A program made the position numbers and the translations under genes. Shown piece after piece: positions 2,452 to 37,383 of a stretch of 37,383 bases of DNA; positions within the stretch are counted from its first letter, which is position 1; each line of letters begins with the position of its first letter. The notes under the pieces are model-generated. The model did no database searches and had not been told where the DNA came from. It saw only the letters and a program-made list of their open reading frames with translations. Location: the IMG/VR virus record IMGVR_UViG_3300017737_000025, positions 1 to 37,383 of that record; one strand, 5' to 3'. Origin of the DNA: a virus.

Positions 2452-3048
2452 TCAACCTAAAGATAAATTGAATGCTATTGAGATTCTATTCTCGGAATTA
2501 TTGTTAATATTTACTTTATGCAACATGTCTGAAGGGAAAAAAACCATTTCTCCAGAAACTGCAGTTAAGTCCCATCCAACAGTATATCTATACTGTTCTC
2601 TTACTGAGTCAGTTACCTTACTAAGCCATTTAAAATTAGAATATGCGGAATTATTAATAACAGTTAAATCTCCAGACTCGGGAGGAGCATCTATCCAAAA
2701 AACACCAGCAATATCGCAATCTGGATGAATATGACATTCATTAAAAGAATCTTTAGCATTGACATTAATCCAAGCACCTTTTAATAAAAGTTTATAACCT
2801 GGATTGAAAACATTGGATAATGCTTTCTTTGAGTGCTGCATCACAAATCTTGCATACTTAGAAAATTCTGATTTTTCAAAAGTATATACATCAGACTGCC
2901 ATCCTCCAACATTTGATTTTTTGACACCCTCATTTCGCTCCATCTCACAATAAATTGCTTTAATTAAGGGTTCTTTTATACCATCAAATTCAGGTTTAGT
3001 ATCATGTTTTACAATTAGTGACGGAAAAATTGATATAACCTCAGTCAT
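2452..3048 (-). CDS. 2OG-Fe(II) oxygenase, TIGR02466/2OG-FeII_Oxy_5-like
   Basis: A 198-aa member of the double-stranded beta-helix oxygenases that couple 2-oxoglutarate decarboxylation to substrate oxidation, usually hydroxylation. The core reads CHIHPDCDIAGVFWID (H106, H108, D110), then MVFFPSDMLHKV (H177 as the distal metal ligand), then NRISIAFN (R188 as the 2OG carboxylate binder). The substrate cannot be inferred. The C-terminal end lies just upstream of the gp25 late promoter, and the start overlaps the small 44-aa ORF by 8 bases. It is one of eight such oxygenases in this window and the only one placed among baseplate genes, suggesting late or read-through expression. Confidence 0.88.
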   Translation of the reverse strand: MTEVISIFPSLIVKHDTKPEFDGIKEPLIKAIYCEMERNEGVKKSNVGGWQSDVYTFEKSEFSKYARFVMQHSKKALSNVFNPGYKLLLKGAWINVNAKDSFNECHIHPDCDIAGVFWIDAPPESGDLTVINNSAYSNFKWLSKVTDSVREQYRYTVGWDLTAVSGEMVFFPSDMLHKVNINNNSENRISIAFNLSLG

Positions 3049-13357: not shown

Positions 13358-13411
13358 TGTAGTCTTTGTAAGTGTTATTAATTTGAGAATATTTAGTATA
13401 ATATTCTCTAT

Positions 13412-13495
13412 AGGACTAGTCAGACTTGAACTGACAAAGATATTTAAATCTGACAGATTTTAAGTCTGTTGTGTTTACCAATTTCACCATAGTCC
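13412..13495 (-). tRNA. tRNA-Leu (UAA)
   Basis: An 84-nt class II tRNA on the minus strand. Acceptor GGACTAT pairs with CTAGTCC (last pair mismatched), D-arm includes GGTAAAC, and the anticodon arm ACAGA-CTTAAAA-TCTGT gives anticodon TAA. It has a long variable arm and the T-arm loop GTTCAAGTC. The 3' CCA is not encoded and position 73 is T. It reads UUA, a codon favoured by AT-rich phage genes. Confidence 0.93.
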
Positions 13496-13514
13496 TAATT
13501 AGTTAAATATAAAG

Positions 13515-13523
13515 TTTTCCACA
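13515..13523 (+). promoter_or_regulatory. Isolated DnaA-box-like 9-mer TTTTCCACA
   Basis: An exact match to the cyanobacterial DnaA box (TTTTCCACA), at the tRNA-side end of the 482-bp non-coding stretch. See the cluster at 13866-13910. Confidence 0.5.
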
Positions 13524-13561
13524 GTTCTGTGAAGTTCTTAAATACTTAACTTTTAAGATTT

Positions 13562-13662
13562 CTGAGGTTTTTATAATTCCTCAGGTTCTACAGTTTCTGA
13601 GATTCTATAAGTTTCTCAGAAACTATAAAACCCTCAGTTATTATAATACTGTAGAACTGAGG
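13562..13662. repeat. Nested inverted repeats (large cruciform)
   Basis: An outer stem joins 13579-13594 to 13648-13662 (15 pairs, one bulge). Inside it a perfect 10-bp stem joins 13593-13602 to 13614-13623. CTGAGG/CCTCAG units recur at 13562, 13579, 13632 and 13657, so alternative stems are possible. TATAAT-like sequence occurs in two loops. The non-coding stretch 13496-13977 holds this structure, DnaA-box-like sites, a further hairpin at 13943-13974, and no ORF. Confidence 0.75.
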
Positions 13663-13865
13663 ATTTGTCAAGTTCTATAAGATTCCTCGGAATGCCTCAT
13701 AGGGACTGACCTTTGAAACCCTACAGAGTTATTATATAAGGATCTCGGAGGTTTGTCAAGTGCCAACTGTGAGAACCTTCTGACATATCTGTGAAGTTCT
13801 TATACTATGGGTTGACAATCGGTACGATGCACGCTAAGACAGAAGGACATCCGCACATTATCAAG

Positions 13866-13910
13866 TATTCCACACCTTTTTCCACACATTATCCACAGGC
13901 ATGTGGAAAA
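13866..13910. other. Cluster of four DnaA-box-like 9-mers (candidate origin)
   Basis: In 45 bp: TATTCCACA at 13866 (one mismatch), TTTTCCACA at 13878 and TTATCCACA at 13889 on plus, and TTTTCCACA at 13902-13910 on minus. Starts are 12, 11 and 13 bp apart. TTTTCCACA is the cyanobacterial consensus and TTATCCACA the strong E. coli-type box. An AT-rich run follows immediately (13911-13942). This looks like a host-initiator binding array. Function is inferred. Confidence 0.6.
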
Positions 13911-13942
13911 CTTAAGTATATTTAAAATGACATTTATAATAT

Positions 13943-13974
13943 ACTCCGAATACACCCCACAGTACCTTCGGAGT
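13943..13974 (-). terminator. Hairpin after the 247-aa oxygenase gene
   Basis: Perfect 8-bp inverted repeat ACTCCGAA/TTCGGAGT with a 16-nt loop, just three bases after the stop of the oxygenase gene. It is followed by AT-rich sequence rather than a clean T-run. It probably ends or stabilises the oxygenase mRNA. Confidence 0.5.
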
Positions 13975-13977
13975 TAC

Positions 13978-14721
13978 TTAGATAAGGTTATTACGGTAGA
14001 ACTTATCACGTTCTCTCTCCTCTTGATCATATGCATGTAACCTAGATCTAATACCATACTCCTTCTCACTCATCTCATCTCTATCTACTTCCGCAATGTT
14101 TGCTCTCTGTGATGCCATTGATGCATTAGTCATCCACCAACCTGCAATAATATACTTATCACCACTAATAGGAGGCACCCCACAATGAACATAAGACCAA
14201 GTACAAGGGAAGAAACAAATATGACCACGCTTAGGTAATGCTTTGAAACCATCTACAAATGCAGTCTCTCCTCCTTCCTCTACATCATTCAAATAGATTA
14301 GATAAGATATTGCTCTCCAATAACCTTCATGAGCATTAGGATCATAATAGTCATCACTATGCCATTTAAAGAATCCTCCAGGTGTAGTCTTCTGTACGTT
14401 AAATCCTGTGATATAAGAGTTCTTACGAAACAGTGGATAGATTAGATCAGGACATTGATCAGTAATGAGATCAGTATATGTTGCAAGAGTCTTTAGAATA
14501 ACACGTTGTAGTTCTTGTGATTCAAAGTGATACTTACGATTATTATAGATGTGTAGATCAGTAGACTGTTTAATCTTTAGATTTACTTGAGGAGGACCAT
14601 CTTTATGACCACATACACCCTGATGAACATTCTTATCAGTATTAAACTTTGCAATTAGTTTATCGCAAAATTCTTGTGATAGAAGAGGTTCATCAGAATA
14701 ATAAATGTAGTTGTTAAACAT
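13978..14721 (-). CDS. 2OG-Fe(II) oxygenase, prolyl-4-hydroxylase type
   Basis: A 247-aa oxygenase of the P4Hc type. The metal triad is visible as WHSDD (H121, D123) and SYVHCG (H179), with K189 in GDKYIIAGWW for 2OG. Between them is the standard YLIYLNDVEEGGETAF block. A charged 45-aa tail follows the core (from about 200, rich in R, E and D), which is not part of the enzyme fold and may contact a partner. Substrate unknown; phage enzymes of this type could hydroxylate protein prolines. It lies alone between the candidate origin and the fused ORF, with its own AT-rich leader. Confidence 0.92.
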   Translation of the reverse strand: MFNNYIYYSDEPLLSQEFCDKLIAKFNTDKNVHQGVCGHKDGPPQVNLKIKQSTDLHIYNNRKYHFESQELQRVILKTLATYTDLITDQCPDLIYPLFRKNSYITGFNVQKTTPGGFFKWHSDDYYDPNAHEGYWRAISYLIYLNDVEEGGETAFVDGFKALPKRGHICFFPCTWSYVHCGVPPISGDKYIIAGWWMTNASMASQRANIAEVDRDEMSEKEYGIRSRLHAYDQEERERDKFYRNNLI

Positions 14722-18486: not shown

Positions 18487-19047
18487 TCACTTAAATTGTG
18501 TATACACTGAATAACGTATACCTTTAGTCACTGGAAGTGTTTCATATGGGAACATGAATGCTGATGGAAACACAATACCAGTGCCAGTAGATGAGTCGGT
18601 TTTTTCTGTACCATAGAATTGTAATCCCCCACCTTCACAGTCATCATTAAGATGAATTATTGCTGTGATAGCAGCACCACTAGGTTCATGATGAATCGGA
18701 CAATGATGTTCTACAGTGGATCTTATTAAAGTATATCCAATATCTGTACTGAAAGATGCTGCTCTAGGATAATCTTTGGCATACGAATACATCAATTTAG
18801 AGAATTTATCCATTAAAAGATCATCAATTTTGCCAGGTCCGATACCAACAACATCACATAATTTGTCACCATTGCTCTCTAACTCCTGCCAATCATCATG
18901 TTTATACATACCAATGATTTCTTGACATTCATCAGCAGTAAGAGTATTTTTAAACTGTCTGATATAATCTTGGGTTGCTCTATCAATAAAACTACAGTCT
19001 TCAAACTTCAGTGGTTCTATTGGGTTTTCTAAATCAACAACTTTCAT
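18487..19047 (-). CDS. 2OG-Fe(II) oxygenase-like protein with altered active site
   Basis: A 186-aa protein with the P4Hc-type layout. The usual H-x-D is replaced by HHE (H119, E121) before AITAIIHLNDDCEGGGLQFYG. The distal metal His normally found in the F-P-H-E motif is a Tyr: MFPYETLPVTKGIRYS (Y168). Lys/Arg near 175-178 for 2OG is kept. Either the metal is held differently or the protein is a pseudoenzyme. It follows the 56-aa gene with a 14-base overlap. Of the eight 2OG proteins here, it is the only one with a damaged triad. Confidence 0.8.
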   Translation of the reverse strand: MKVVDLENPIEPLKFEDCSFIDRATQDYIRQFKNTLTADECQEIIGMYKHDDWQELESNGDKLCDVVGIGPGKIDDLLMDKFSKLMYSYAKDYPRAASFSTDIGYTLIRSTVEHHCPIHHEPSGAAITAIIHLNDDCEGGGLQFYGTEKTDSSTGTGIVFPSAFMFPYETLPVTKGIRYSVYTQFK

Positions 19048-19570: not shown

Positions 19571-20224
19571 TTAAACTTTTAATTCGTTTTGGAACTCCAA
19601 TGACCTTACACTATCTGCATTAAATGAAAATGTTAGTCTTTGGTCAGTGACATTTTGATCATCACTGAGTTTCACACAATGATTTAGGTGTGGTGGAAAC
19701 AGCACTACATCACCATCAACAAAATTAGTGATGTAATTATCATCATAGTATTTTCTCAATGGACTACTCTGAACATTTATTGGTCCCTGTGTTTTCATTG
19801 AGAGATCTGTTTTTTGAAATGCAAACTGACCAGGCAGACAATTCTTTGCAAAGTAAACACCAGACCAGATAGGTGCTAATCCAGCCTCAGGAAGATGATT
19901 GTGCCATTCTTGTCCTTGACCTGCATAATATGCATTATACCAAAAGTTATAAAACACAATCTCAGTCATTAATCCATAAGATTTATGCAATTTCTTAACT
20001 TGAAATAGCAAATCTTTTTGAAGTTGATTTACTGCCTCCATCGGTGCATAAGGATCATCCTGCTGTACCTGAGGAAATGATGTATTTAATTCACACTGCC
20101 ATGATCTAGGTTGACGTTTAACAACATCCCAGTTATCCCATTTATCATTATATTCATCATGCTTTTCAAACCTGAATTTGATAATGGGTGTTGAAAATAG
20201 TTCAATTACTTCAGTATTTTTCAT
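19571..20224 (-). CDS. 2OG-Fe(II) oxygenase, TIGR02466-like (paralogue A)
   Basis: A 217-aa oxygenase. Core: QGQEWHNHLPEAG (H108, H110), SGVYFAKNCLPGQFAF, LFPPHLNHCV (H182), QRLTFSFNA (R196). The N-terminus has ELFSTPI then KWDNWD, SWQCELNTSFPQVQQDDPYA. It is closely related to the next gene (20211-20837), which shares most of these blocks, so the pair is a tandem duplication. The two overlap by 14 bases. Substrate unknown. Confidence 0.92.
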   Translation of the reverse strand: MKNTEVIELFSTPIIKFRFEKHDEYNDKWDNWDVVKRQPRSWQCELNTSFPQVQQDDPYAPMEAVNQLQKDLLFQVKKLHKSYGLMTEIVFYNFWYNAYYAGQGQEWHNHLPEAGLAPIWSGVYFAKNCLPGQFAFQKTDLSMKTQGPINVQSSPLRKYYDDNYITNFVDGDVVLFPPHLNHCVKLSDDQNVTDQRLTFSFNADSVRSLEFQNELKV

Positions 20225-20837
20225 TGTTATGACTGATGTTGAATGAAAAAGTTAGTCTCTGCTCAGTTCTGTTTGTTGCTCCTACTTTTACTGAATGATG
20301 TAAATGTGGTGGAAACAAAACTAAATTGCCATCAGAGAATGGAGTGGGATAAAACTCTTCATAATAATCTCTCAATGGTGTGGTTTGATGAGCAAAAGAT
20401 TGTTGAGTTCTATGTGAGTATTCTGTTTTGATAAAATAAAATGATCCAGGGAAACAATTTTTTGCAAAATATACTCCAGACCAAAATGGATCCTTTCCAT
20501 CAACTGTCAAATGATTATGTGGTTCTTGACCCTGACCATCATAATATGCATTATACCAGAACGCTGTATACCTTAAATCAGTCGGCATATTCTTACTGAG
20601 CATGATCTTCTTGATCTGGAACATAATATCTTCCTTCAGATCATCTACAATAGCAGGAGGAACATATGGATCATCCTGTCTCACTTCAGGGAATGATGTA
20701 TTTAATGGAACGTGCCATGATTCTGGTTTGCGATCACATTTATCCCAGTTACCAAACTCTCCCGCGTATTTCCGATGAGCATCAAACTCAGTTTGAATAA
20801 CAGGAGTAGCAAATAAATTTAATATTTTTGTTTTCAT
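20211..20837 (-). CDS. 2OG-Fe(II) oxygenase, TIGR02466-like (paralogue B)
   Basis: A 208-aa oxygenase similar to its downstream neighbour. Shared blocks: NLFATPV, SWHVPLNTSFPEVRQDDPY, WYNAYYDGQGQEPHNHL (H107, H109), SGVYFAKNCFPGSF, LVLFPPHLHHSV (H180/H181), EQRLTFSFN (R194). The differences cluster around the insert between the two metal motifs, the likely substrate pocket. It starts with an ATGA overlap with the 202-aa oxygenase. Confidence 0.92.
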   Translation of the reverse strand: MKTKILNLFATPVIQTEFDAHRKYAGEFGNWDKCDRKPESWHVPLNTSFPEVRQDDPYVPPAIVDDLKEDIMFQIKKIMLSKNMPTDLRYTAFWYNAYYDGQGQEPHNHLTVDGKDPFWSGVYFAKNCFPGSFYFIKTEYSHRTQQSFAHQTTPLRDYYEEFYPTPFSDGNLVLFPPHLHHSVKVGATNRTEQRLTFSFNISHNNEKY

Positions 20838-21442
20838 AGTTTTTCAGACCACACTTTAGTTAGCATATTTTTACGATGCTTTTTACTACAAACAAGAGTA
20901 TCATCAAGATTCATATTATCCTTATACTCTTTACAATGTATATTAATAGATATAATAATTCTATCGTTATCATCGTAATCCACAGGATCTACACCATGAG
21001 ATGCCCATGAAGGAAATGCAATGAAGTCTCCTGAGTTTTGTGTGTCAGGATAATACTTCTTGCCTTTACTAATAAAGTAAAAGCACTTCTGATCCTTGGG
21101 CGCTCTTATAAAATGAACCATTGATAACAACTGATCACCACTAAAATGTGTGTGAGTAGGATGAAACCCACTAGTTGTTCTATTATAGATCTGACACCAC
21201 TTGAATACATCATTTACAGTTCTGTCTAGTAAATCAAGATGATCTAGAATTTCATTCAGTTTCTCATCATAATAACTCTCTAACTCAGGAGGAAAATGCC
21301 GAGATTTTGAAGCATTATATGATGAGTAAATAGGAAACTGAACACCCTTACGTGGGTAGATGAAGTTATCAATCTTAATTGACCGACTCAGTTCTTCTAC
21401 CAGAGCATCACTTAATTTATCATTGAACGTATGAATGATCAC
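20834..21442 (-). CDS. 2OG-Fe(II) oxygenase-like protein (202 aa, GTG start)
   Basis: A 202-aa protein starting with GTG at 21442 in a GTGA overlap with the upstream gene. The core is FHPTHTHFSGDQLLSMVHFI (H97, H99), DFIAFPSWASHGVDPV (H149) and DRIIISINIHC (R161), with an insert KGKKYYPDTQNSG between. This matches the TIGR02466-type oxygenases but is more distant from the tandem pair downstream. The C-terminal 30 residues are basic (KKHRKNMLTKVW) and may bind nucleic acid or a partner. Substrate unknown. Confidence 0.85.
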   Translation of the reverse strand: MIIHTFNDKLSDALVEELSRSIKIDNFIYPRKGVQFPIYSSYNASKSRHFPPELESYYDEKLNEILDHLDLLDRTVNDVFKWCQIYNRTTSGFHPTHTHFSGDQLLSMVHFIRAPKDQKCFYFISKGKKYYPDTQNSGDFIAFPSWASHGVDPVDYDDNDRIIISINIHCKEYKDNMNLDDTLVCSKKHRKNMLTKVWSEKL

Positions 21443-22388: not shown

Positions 22389-22874
22389 TTACACCCAAAG
22401 GTGCATTACTAATATTTTTTTAATACCTCTTGTAACACGCAGACCACAATGAGGATAGTTGAATGAAGATGGAAACATTAAAGTTTTACCTGCCGATGGT
22501 GTGATTACACGATCAATAAATTGAGTCTCTCCTGATTCAAAATCATCATTAAGGTAAGTTATAGTAGATAGCATTCTATGCATGTTACCTTCAGACCTTT
22601 CATCAGAATGCCATGAGAAGTAATGATTGTTATCTTTATACTCTGCTATCTTAGCATCAAATTTATAACCACGATTGAGTTGACGATGAAACTCTTGAGC
22701 AACCAATGGATAAAGTTGTTTGGTATATGTCTGAATAAGTTTGGATGTGTCAGGATAAGAAGGCAACCAAATAACATTACGAGAACTAAACTTCGTCTGT
22801 TCTTTCTGATTGCACTGATAGTTAGAATATAATTCTAACTCCTCCTTAGTCCAAACATAATCATACAATATCAT
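22389..22874 (-). CDS. 2OG-Fe(II) oxygenase, prolyl-4-hydroxylase type (161 aa)
   Basis: A compact 161-aa P4Hc-type oxygenase. YFSWHSDE (H89, D91), TITYLNDDFESGETQF, NYPHCGLRVTRG (H142), and R149/K152 for 2OG are all present, so the active site looks intact. It lacks the long charged tail of the 247-aa enzyme. It overlaps the membrane-protein gene by 14 bases. Substrate unknown. Confidence 0.92.
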   Translation of the reverse strand: MILYDYVWTKEELELYSNYQCNQKEQTKFSSRNVIWLPSYPDTSKLIQTYTKQLYPLVAQEFHRQLNRGYKFDAKIAEYKDNNHYFSWHSDERSEGNMHRMLSTITYLNDDFESGETQFIDRVITPSAGKTLMFPSSFNYPHCGLRVTRGIKKILVMHLWV

Positions 22875-23309: not shown

Positions 23310-23394
23310 AGGAAGATGTGAGATTTGAACTCACGGAGGTGTGATCCTCTCCAGTTTTCAAGACTGGTGCAATAAACCGCTCTGCCAACCTTCC
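23310..23394 (-). tRNA. tRNA-Ser (UGA)
   Basis: An 85-nt class II tRNA on the minus strand. Acceptor GGAAGGT pairs with ATCTTCC (one GU), D-arm GGCAGAGCGG, anticodon arm CCAGT-CTTGAAA-ACTGG with anticodon TGA, a long variable arm, and T-arm loop GTTCAAATC. No CCA is encoded, and base 73 is T. It reads UCA. It follows the porin gene terminator (23398-23418) directly, so it needs its own promoter or read-through. Confidence 0.95.
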
Positions 23395-34684: not shown

Positions 34685-35017
34685 TTAGCGTTTTATGCAT
34701 TTAAGGTTATATTCTCTCGCTTTAAGTGCCTCAATCATATACATCATCGCTACTTCTGGATTCGTTTCCCCACATGTAAAAACATCTAGGGCGGCAGACC
34801 CTCGTTCGGGCCAAGTGTGGATGCTGATGTGACTCTCTGAGAGTAATGCTACAATAGTAACACCTTGTGGTTCAAACTTATGAGATGAGATATCCAATAA
34901 GGTTAAACTAGTTTTATTTAGAGACTGAATAATTTGCTCTTTTAAATAATTTTCATCATCAAGAAGTTCACGAGGGCATTCATATGCCTCGGTGAAGCAA
35001 TGCTTACCAAGTGTCAT
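34685..35017 (-). CDS. speD: S-adenosylmethionine decarboxylase proenzyme
   Basis: A 110-aa SpeD. The proenzyme cleaves itself between E61 and S62 in LLSESHISIHTWPE to form the pyruvoyl cofactor. The conserved H and DVFTCGE blocks and C14 are present. Length fits the short bacterial/archaeal class. It makes decarboxylated SAM for spermidine synthesis, and polyamines pack phage DNA. It sits among virion genes and shares one base with the gp5-like stop, so it is made late. Typical of several T4-like cyanophages. Confidence 0.95.
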   Translation of the reverse strand: MTLGKHCFTEAYECPRELLDDENYLKEQIIQSLNKTSLTLLDISSHKFEPQGVTIVALLSESHISIHTWPERGSAALDVFTCGETNPEVAMMYMIEALKAREYNLKCIKR

Positions 35018-36210
35018 TAGTTCAATCTAATAATAAGAGCAGTACCTGCAATTTCCTTTGTTGCTACCATTGAAATCATACCCATGGCACCAGTTGCTTG
35101 TATTGCAACAGAACCACCTAAGTTTTGTAGGAGGATTGTATTCAGTGGCGTGGGACCAGTTTGAATGCCAATATTACCTACTGCTGTTGCCTGGAGAACA
35201 CAATCACCTTTAACCAAAGATCCAGCAGACCATGCTGTTAGTCCTGGTGCAGCAGTGCCAACCTGACAGTAAGAATTACCCACAGGGATATTAACAAAAT
35301 CTTGAGAATATTGTAGAAGAGGATCCATCAGCAATGTTGATGTCCTACTACCAACAATTTCATATTTTAATGCCTCAGTCGGCATTTCTATTTGCAGTGG
35401 TCCAACTTTTTTAATTGGGTTATTGTTGACCTTGACTTTCATCTTGCCATCAACCTCAAGAATATAGTCATGACCTACTTTATGATGAAGTGTTCCCTGA
35501 GTTTCGTGGGTGGTAATATGAGCTCCTGGTCCCAAAACAGAGGGTTCCAGAATATTCATCTTCTGTTCCTGAATTACTTCACCATAATTCTCCTCCATCT
35601 TACTACCAGTAACAGTTTCTTTGAAACTGGTTGTAGAAAGTTCATACTGACCTGTGGAAATACTTAATTTGCCACTACCAACACTTTTTGTTAACCCAAA
35701 TGGTACAGGATCTTGACTTCCAGTGTTTAAACTAATTTGCTCTGCTGCTTTCAGTTTAATACTACCGCCTGCATTCAGTTCAATATCCTTAGCGGCAGAA
35801 ATATAAATTCCTCCCTTACCATTAGATTGAATACATATGTCTCCAGTGCCAAAGATTTCAACACTTTTTTCCTCATCTTCACCAGCCTCACCACCACCAG
35901 TAACTCTATGACCTTCAGCAATTAACTTAATGTTATGCCCTGACTTGAAGTGCATATACCCCACTGATTTAACATCAAGGTATCCCTCATTAGGGGTCAT
36001 ATCTGAACTTCTAGCATTAATTAAAACTGCACCATTCTCCTGCCAACGAACAAATGATCCGCGATAATGTCGCATCTCATAGTTCCTATCGTCAGGACCA
36101 CATGTTTCTCTAATGGCAAAGGAGCTATCAGTGAGAGTCTCCCTTACCTCATTTATTTCCTCCGTAATTTTGGAAGATTCTTGTACAAGGGACTGTTTAG
36201 TATCTAACAT
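35017..36210 (-). CDS. Baseplate spike/hub protein, gp5/VgrG-like beta-helix (397 aa)
   Basis: A 397-aa protein with the repeated short strands of a trimeric beta-helix spike: SVGYMHFKSGHNIKLIAEG, GDICIQSNGKGGIYISAAKDIELNAGG, SIKLKAAEQISLNTG. These D-I-x-I/x-I-x-L repeats match the C-terminal needle of T4 gp5 and VgrG. There is no lysozyme domain in the 397 residues, unlike T4 gp5. It probably works with the PAAR tip encoded at 8014-8319. It begins directly after the Cys-repeat gene (gap of one base) and ends on the speD start (TAATG). Confidence 0.82.
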   Translation of the reverse strand: MLDTKQSLVQESSKITEEINEVRETLTDSSFAIRETCGPDDRNYEMRHYRGSFVRWQENGAVLINARSSDMTPNEGYLDVKSVGYMHFKSGHNIKLIAEGHRVTGGGEAGEDEEKSVEIFGTGDICIQSNGKGGIYISAAKDIELNAGGSIKLKAAEQISLNTGSQDPVPFGLTKSVGSGKLSISTGQYELSTTSFKETVTGSKMEENYGEVIQEQKMNILEPSVLGPGAHITTHETQGTLHHKVGHDYILEVDGKMKVKVNNNPIKKVGPLQIEMPTEALKYEIVGSRTSTLLMDPLLQYSQDFVNIPVGNSYCQVGTAAPGLTAWSAGSLVKGDCVLQATAVGNIGIQTGPTPLNTILLQNLGGSVAIQATGAMGMISMVATKEIAGTALIIRLN

Positions 36211-36211
36211 T

Positions 36212-37383
36212 TTATGGGCAATCTACGATGAACACGGTTCCAATTGTACTATCATTATATTTATTGACGACTCTGAGATAGCGTTCAGCAACTTCACTAC
36301 AAGGAACAAATTGGATAATTGGTTTAGCAGATCCACCAAATCCATTAGCACCTCTGATTCTAATATCAGGAAGTTTATCATAAACTATATTTTGTGGATT
36401 GGTGATTCTAATCTCAACAAGTTTTCCATCCTCAATAGCAGCAAATGCTATAGTTGGGTCGCCATTAACATAAACAGTAGGCGATGATTCATAATAACCA
36501 CCGACATTCGTAAGAGCAATCTCACTAAGAATTCCGCATTCACCTGCTATATCAACGTTTGGAGTATATCCAATACCTGGAGATTTTACTATAATATTAA
36601 TTAAACATCCATGCTCATCTAACTCTGCTTTAGCAATAGCACCAGTCCCAAGACCGCTGATAGCAATTAAAGGAGGTTGCTTATATCGCACATTACAGTC
36701 TTGCAATTCAGGAGGAATAGGCACAGAAACTACACCACCAGGAGGACCAACAATAACTGGTGTACTAGGAGGTGGATCGTCAGTAAACAAATCATCCTCA
36801 TCATCATCATCAGGTACACAAACACCATTAACACACACATATCCTTCAGGACAATCAGAATCTATCGTACATGCAAGTACACATACACCATTAACACACA
36901 CATATCCTTCAGGACAGTCGTCATCTATTTTACATCCTATCACACACTTACCATTAACACATATCATACCTTCAGGGCAGTCTTCATCTATTTTACATTC
37001 ATCAGGTTCAAGAGTAGGCGGTGGATCATCATCAGGTTCATCAAATGGAGGAGGCGGGTCAATTATATCATCAACAGATACACAAACACCATCAATACAT
37101 ACCTGTCCTTTAGGGCAGTCAGCATCTATTGTACATTCTGGAGCAGGATCAGGTACACATTCACCATTGATACATATTTGACCTTCAGGACAGTCAGAAT
37201 CTACTAAACATCCCGTAGTAGGAATAATATCCTCATCTGGACAATAATATTCTTTGTTAGTTTTATCCTTCCAATATCCTTCTTTCTCCTTCATATATGT
37301 AAGAGAGTTTGGATCTTCAAACAACATTCTTCTCACGACCGTGCAATCATCATCAGGATCATCATCAGGAAAATCTTCTGGAA
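36212..37383 (-). CDS. Cys-repeat virion-type protein (truncated by right edge)
   Basis: An open frame runs off the right edge; the GTG at 37336 is internal to a longer frame (PEDFPDDDPDDDC ... continues upstream), so the real start lies outside. The visible part has five repeats C-x5-C-P-x-G-x2-C-x2-G-x-C-V (for example CTIDADCPKGQVCIDGVCV) linked by Pro/Asp-rich spacers, then a beta-rich part with GLGTGAIAKAELDEHG and PGIGYTPNVDIAG blocks of the kind found in phage virion proteins. The Cys repeats are disulfide-type modules. It leads the gp5-like/speD string. Start unseen, so function is only inferred as virion-associated. Confidence 0.75.
   Translation of the reverse strand, partial: PEDFPDDDPDDDCTVVRRMLFEDPNSLTYMKEKEGYWKDKTNKEYYCPDEDIIPTTGCLVDSDCPEGQICINGECVPDPAPECTIDADCPKGQVCIDGVCVSVDDIIDPPPPFDEPDDDPPPTLEPDECKIDEDCPEGMICVNGKCVIGCKIDDDCPEGYVCVNGVCVLACTIDSDCPEGYVCVNGVCVPDDDDEDDLFTDDPPPSTPVIVGPPGGVVSVPIPPELQDCNVRYKQPPLIAISGLGTGAIAKAELDEHGCLINIIVKSPGIGYTPNVDIAGECGILSEIALTNVGGYYESSPTVYVNGDPTIAFAAIEDGKLVEIRITNPQNIVYDKLPDIRIRGANGFGGSAKPIIQFVPCSEVAERYLRVVNKYNDSTIGTVFIVDCP

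Follow-up and report, generated by a model that had tools for sequence, protein, structure and literature searches.

Setting and features of the locus

The window analysed here, the whole stretch of 37,383 nucleotides of IMG/VR record IMGVR_UViG_3300017737_000025, represents a 37-kb piece of a T4-like cyanomyovirus genome, with almost all genes on the minus strand. One end of the window holds gp6 (153-2006) with gp25 beside it (2010-2414), the opposite end holds gp5-like baseplate hub/lysozyme genes (35017-37336), and the interval between them is filled with numerous small genes and with genes for CobS, a peptidase and several 2OG-oxygenases. The 37 kb contain seven or more 2OG-Fe(II) oxygenase-like genes, of which three are consecutive (the set includes 2452-3048, 13978-14721, 18487-19047, 19571-21442 and 22389-22874). 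A tRNA-Ser (TGA) gene is located amid the phage gene array at 23310-23394, and an S-adenosylmethionine decarboxylase gene of the phage type (PHROG 3125), probably polyamine-related, at 34685-35017.

The locus of interest lies between a tRNA-Leu gene and one of the oxygenase genes. The original prediction delimited it as 13496-13977, a region described as free of open reading frames; its start at 13496 overlaps the edge of the tRNA gene. From left to right, the features are as follows.

13410-13497, minus strand: tRNA-Leu gene (anticodon TAA; ARAGORN, Rfam RF00005), left neighbour of the module
13506-13533, minus strand: weak sigma-70-like promoter TTCACA-16-TATATT (10/12 matches), just upstream of tRNA-Leu
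13515-13523, plus strand: left-hand DnaA box TTTTCCACA; the right-hand cluster has its first exact box 363 bp away
13578-13663: nested inverted repeat rich in CTGAG/CTCAG, possible cruciform
13643-13671, minus strand: sigma-70-type promoter TTGACA-17-TATTAT (11/12), pointing to tRNA-Leu
13731-13759, minus strand: perfect-consensus sigma-70 promoter TTGACA-17-TATAAT (12/12), divergent from the plus-strand core
13812-13840, plus strand: conserved promoter-like core TTGACA-N17-TAAGAC, antisense to both flanking protein genes
13853-13862, plus strand: conserved GCACATTATC stretch, GCACxTTAxC in relatives (alignment A1)
13866-13874, plus strand: near-match DnaA box TATTCCACA, at the same place in relatives L008 and L013
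13878-13886, plus strand: DnaA box TTTTCCACA, conserved in relatives
13889-13897, plus strand: DnaA box TTATCCACA, conserved in relatives
13902-13910, minus strand: inverted DnaA box TTTTCCACA, conserved in relatives
13911-13946: imperfect inverted repeat of A+T-rich sequence that may serve as an unwinding element
13943-13974: hairpin with an 8-bp stem, read from the sequence, directly beyond the point where the oxygenase gene ends
13978-14721, minus strand: 2OG-oxygenase gene, right neighbour of the non-coding stretch

The module thus reads as early promoter(s) facing left, a core facing right and then the boxes, close to which lies an A+T-rich run. The hairpin at 13943-13974 was not scored as a terminator and is possibly the end of the oxygenase transcript. 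A near-identical genome of 177,686 bp is present in IMG/VR (G001, IMGVR_UViG_3300050343_000215), and both ends of its contig fall inside the module, at window position 13831/13832, which suggests a complete genome that was assembled as a circle and opened at the candidate origin.

A conserved promoter-like core with a divergent partner

The best-conserved part of the locus is the core element, which the original prediction had overlooked. In relatives it takes the form TTGACN-N17-TAAGNC followed by GCACxTTA, and in most of the 19 phages of alignment A1 some 50 columns of it align without gaps. Its -10 element (TAAGAC) is non-canonical, with no T at the last position, and the GCACATTATC stretch behind it is presumed to be the early part of the transcript. 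The DnaA boxes follow 70-140 bp downstream of the core/GCAC-TTA element. In 22 of 24 loci the core opposes most nearby open reading frames, a count that describes the orientation of a promoter-like element and not measured RNA, and in the window no plus-strand open reading frame of at least 60 amino acids occurs for over 2.5 kb downstream.

Also overlooked were the two near-perfect minus-strand promoters, both of which, including that at 13731-13759, face tRNA-Leu. Among 41 relatives, 30 have a divergent consensus sigma-70 promoter, where 3.3 would be expected; it lies 35-110 bp upstream of the core, often at 35-40, 52, 74 or 110 bp. The spacing between the opposed -35 hexamers, which is 52 bp in the window (13731-13817), is often near 37, 74 or 110 bp across the window, Syn33, Syn19 and the IMG/VR relatives; these are approximately multiples of 37, as if it mattered how the divergent promoters are phased on the helix.

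DnaA boxes cluster beyond chance

All five boxes of the original prediction (three TTTTCCACA, one TTATCCACA and one TATTCCACA) were recovered at the coordinates it gave, with four of them, the right-hand boxes, lying within 45 bp at steps of 12, 11 and 13 bp. Its statement that the window holds no other exact copy fails on a further TTATCCACA at 1468-1476, inside the gp6 gene. The 9-mer TTTTCCACA is identical to the cyanobacterial DnaA box of S. elongatus, Anabaena and Cyanothece (PMC4674748), as had been proposed, and the identification of these 9-mers as DnaA boxes is well supported by this literature.

The pattern TTWTCCACA occurs five times in the window against 1.05 expected. Three exact boxes within 45 bp arose in none of 2,000 first-order Markov sequences, and even two boxes did so in only 2 of 2,000. 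For the 177,686 bp of G001, a three-box cluster was produced by 0 of 300 random sequences, and four of the seven occurrences of TTWTCCACA in that whole genome lie at this locus. Chance-level occurrence, which would have undone the original proposal, is further contradicted by the absence of box clusters elsewhere in these cyanophage genomes. Several boxes of the species type are therefore clustered beyond chance here, as at DnaA-dependent origins.

The module is conserved at one locus and couples core to boxes

Whole-genome searches of 24 cultured cyanomyoviruses, plus T4, yielded box clusters (two or more exact boxes in a span of 40 bp) in 16 of the 24, always at one locus, and none in T4. 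The position is thus kept across related cyanophages, as the original prediction required. The core model, R1, matched the locus in 19 of the 24 cultured genomes, 17 of them at E<1e-3. Matches outside its training set included P-SSM7 (1e-14), P-RSM4 (5e-10) and S-SM2 (9e-4), the weaker S-BM3 (0.004) and P-SSM4 (0.007), and the contigs G019, G034, G026 and G027.

The test that most convinces us is the observed coupling of the two elements. IMG/VR loci were picked by the core alone, ignoring boxes, and the contigs that carry them supplied 932 control windows. All 30 distinct core-picked loci had two or more exact DnaA boxes within 230 bp, and none of the control windows did. A search of IMG/VR with the three-box pattern returned 19 contigs, about 14 of which have related flanking sequence, and the cluster is also present in cultured S-PM2, DSL-LC03, S-BM3, S-RIM44 and S-CAM1. 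IMG/VR contigs selected by gp25 were mostly too short to reach the locus. When the whole region was compared with phages by blastn, the matches listed covered only tRNA-Leu, which indicates that ordinary similarity searching misses the module.

Additional boxes accompany the cluster in several genomes. A box at a similar distance to the left-hand box of the window is found in relatives L013, L010 and L008, and further exact boxes lie 0.2-1.1 kb from the cluster in DSL-LC03, Syn33, S-RIM32, ACG-2014d and P-SSM7. Where these form a second pair 0.6-1.1 kb from the main cluster, the arrangement is bipartite (S-RIM32, 61859-61880; ACG-2014d, 37678-37697; P-SSM7, 46602-46631; and G026, locus L319). 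Very dense DnaA-box arrays, with many boxes per few hundred bp, were also seen in two unrelated viral IMG/VR contigs, L015 (128,966 bp) and L016 (145,042 bp).

The use of DnaA does not appear to be universal, since S-RSM4, S-CAM4 and P-HM1 keep the core without exact boxes, and neither core nor box cluster was found in P-SSM2, S-SSM7 and S-CRM01. Inverted TTATTGAGAA/TTCTCAATA repeats replace the DnaA boxes in S-RSM4 (NC_013085, 140181-140400) and stand beside them in DSL-LC03 (L076), and are possibly an alternative set of initiator sites. Prochlorococcus has been reported to lack DnaA boxes near dnaA (PMC4674748), and the idea that its phages likewise lack them, based on 0 of 4 at first, was dropped because P-SSM7 and P-TIM68 carry box clusters.

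The cruciform and GC skew

The original prediction set a large cruciform beside the boxes. In the window it is present, with outer arms at about 13578-13594/13648-13663 (one bulged base) and inner arms at 13592-13602/13614-13624, the right arm overlapping the minus-strand promoter at 13643-13671, and the strand 13498-13977 folds far better than its shuffles (z = -6.1). A strong fold upstream of the core also occurs in S-PM2, S-RIM44, Syn1, S-RIM32, S-RSM4 and L013. As none was found there in Syn9, Syn19, Syn33, S-SM1 and S-SSM5, so that about half of the relatives are without it, the cruciform was ruled out as an essential or defining part of the module.

A GC-skew switch at the locus, which had been suggested as a check, was absent in all six genomes examined (G001, G003, Syn9, S-PM2, Syn33 and Syn1). 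Skew followed gene strand and lends the origin no support, although a switch is expected to be weak, as T4-type recombination-dependent replication would blur it.

Position and layout resemble T4 oriE

In the window the module has gp5 on one side and gp25-gp6 on the other, and it lies upstream of gp25-gp6 in Syn19, Syn9, P-RSM4 and P-HM1 as well. The T4 annotation places oriE in gene 5 before gene 6, in the minus-strand direction, with the remark that the 'primer RNA is complement of gene 5 transcript'. T4 oriE carries evenly spaced 12-nt iterons without a known role, relies on an early promoter and not on a MotA promoter, and has little dependence on gp59; three active T4 origins lie where transcription diverges, and oriE, oriF and oriG are near transcription switches (Kreuzer and Brister, PMC3016281). 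Cyanomyoviruses lack motA and asiA and keep the T4 replisome together with the recombination proteins UvsX and UvsY (PMC2984593).

The module shares with oriE its place between the baseplate genes 5 and 6, an orientation of the promoter-like core antisense to late genes (as is the oriE primer RNA), a predicted promoter of the early, host sigma-70 type, evenly spaced short repeats and predicted divergent transcription nearby. It therefore matches oriE in place, orientation, promoter class and repeats, whereas no similarity in sequence was seen, R1 giving no hit in T4. The differences are also clear: oriE lies inside gene 5, has 12-nt iterons with no known binder and includes repEA/repEB, whereas the cyanophage module is a separate intergenic element, kilobases from gp5, whose repeats are 9-nt cyanobacterial DnaA boxes and not the T4 12-mers. 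The module may descend from oriE.

In the R-loop model of T4 oriF (uvsY) and oriG (34), a promoter is followed by an A+T-rich unwinding element (about 100 bp). The same succession is seen in the predicted core at 13812-13840 and the run at 13911-13946, and relatives have an A+T-rich run on either side of the boxes, so that they show either this order or a run that precedes the boxes. Unlike the module, oriF and oriG have MotA-dependent middle promoters, for which cyanomyoviruses have no motA, and no initiator boxes.

DnaA-dependent plasmid and phage origins with iterons likewise combine DnaA boxes with promoters and a neighbouring A+T-rich run; they come with a Rep protein of their own, whereas none was identified for the cyanophage module. 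Cyanobacterial oriC (S. elongatus PCC 7942, Anabaena PCC 7120 and Cyanothece ATCC 51142) resembles the module in its clustered TTTTCCACA and, in some genomes, in box steps of 11-12 bp. It differs in adjoining dnaN and in being cellular, whereas the phage has its own T4 replisome, and we know of no TTGAC-N18-TAAG core at a cyanobacterial oriC. A triple TTTTCCACA cluster was found in 21 of 116 sampled cyanobacterial genomes and a reversed control pattern in 0 of 116. The strict triple pattern is nearly absent from the small genomes (about 1.6-2.8 Mb, a group that probably includes picocyanobacteria), and the survey consequently does not pin down the oriC of the host itself. DnaA is dispensable in some cyanobacteria (PMC4674748).

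Interpretation and alternatives

We read the stretch as a replication origin, or one of several, of a T4-like cyanomyovirus, a counterpart of oriE with host DnaA boxes as its iterons, and put the probability of this reading at about 55%. Counting against it are the missing skew switch, the relatives that have the core without exact boxes or neither element, the non-canonical -10 and, from the literature, the dispensability of DnaA in some cyanobacteria and the reported lack of boxes near dnaA in Prochlorococcus. The conserved module, its single locus, its placement relative to gp5 and gp25-gp6, the antisense core and the tight core-box coupling are direct observations. The origin that was first proposed is the best of several readings and gains from a parallel with oriE that had not been drawn; of the checks suggested for it, the conserved boxes bear it out and the skew switch does not.

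The promoter activity, DnaA binding, R-loop and origin activity that we infer for the module would combine as follows. Early in infection, unmodified host RNA polymerase would begin to transcribe a short non-coding RNA from TTGACA-N17-TAAGAC on the plus strand, with the consensus minus-strand promoters firing in the opposite direction. Negative supercoiling between the diverging polymerases, together with the A+T-rich run, would allow the plus-strand RNA to stay annealed as an R-loop, and host DnaA on the phased boxes would keep the duplex open, or recruit helicase, just downstream. The 3' end of the RNA could then prime leading-strand synthesis against the late-gene direction, after which the phage gp41/gp61/gp43 replisome would load.

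The main rival, which we consider improbable though well ahead of the others, is that the locus is a divergent early-promoter region under DnaA control and not an origin. Boxes past the plus-strand start would then serve as a DnaA roadblock or as a sensor of host DnaA-ATP, setting the time at which an antisense RNA, or else tRNA-Leu and the early genes of the minus strand, are expressed. The consensus sigma-70 promoters do face the tRNA and small genes, the left-hand box sits in the spacer of the weak promoter just upstream of tRNA-Leu, between its -35 and -10, and S-BM3 has two small genes downstream in the direction of the core; most loci, however, have no same-strand gene downstream of the core, and a plain operator leaves both the fixed site upstream of gp25-gp6 and the three to four phased boxes unexplained.

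A different binder is distinctly less probable still: the TTTTCCACA repeats would only look like DnaA boxes and be sites for another protein, such as a phage initiator or nucleoid protein, or form an RNA hairpin. The inverted last box does create TTTTCCACA-N4-TGTGGAAAA, a potential RNA hairpin, and some relatives bear different repeats at this place (TTATTGAGAA in S-RSM4). Since the main clusters of S-RIM44, Syn1, S-CAM1 and ACG-2014d have direct repeats only, with the 9-mers retained, the array makes less sense as an RNA hairpin, and the sequence of the 9-mer is that of the cyanobacterial DnaA box (PMC4674748). An RNA element was rejected, as the core alignment shows no consensus structure, no Rfam family except tRNA matched and the hairpin is not conserved. 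Least probable, and only a slight prospect in our estimation, is a decoy: as the phage genomes multiply, they would sequester the DnaA of the host and so halt initiation there, after the model of datA, the DnaA decoy of E. coli. Four to five good boxes at one place in each genome would be multiplied by phage copy number, but so few boxes per genome amount to little, and a decoy need be neither coupled to a promoter, as in all 30 core-picked cases, nor tied to one location.

Implications for T4-like cyanophages

Our literature search surfaced no description of DnaA boxes in cyanomyoviruses and, save for one in silico prediction, no origin described for T4-like cyanophages; that prediction, of a single theta origin for Syn9 (Weigele et al. 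2007), is cited in PMC2984593. The wider proposal, that T4-like cyanophages start replication at one main DnaA-dependent origin that is a descendant or functional equivalent of oriE, is more tentative than the reading of this locus, and we lean somewhat against it.

Few viruses of the ocean are more abundant than T4-like cyanophages. The analysis names a sequence of about 500 bp that can be tested in cultured S-PM2, Syn9, Syn19, Syn33, S-SM1 and P-SSM7. If the origin reading is true, a T4-type virus ties its first round of copying to the host initiator, and the unexplained iterons of T4 oriE would gain by analogy a role as binding sites. Initiation in a virus with a complete replisome of its own would then be linked to the cell cycle and physiology of its host, for example through light/dark control of DnaA.
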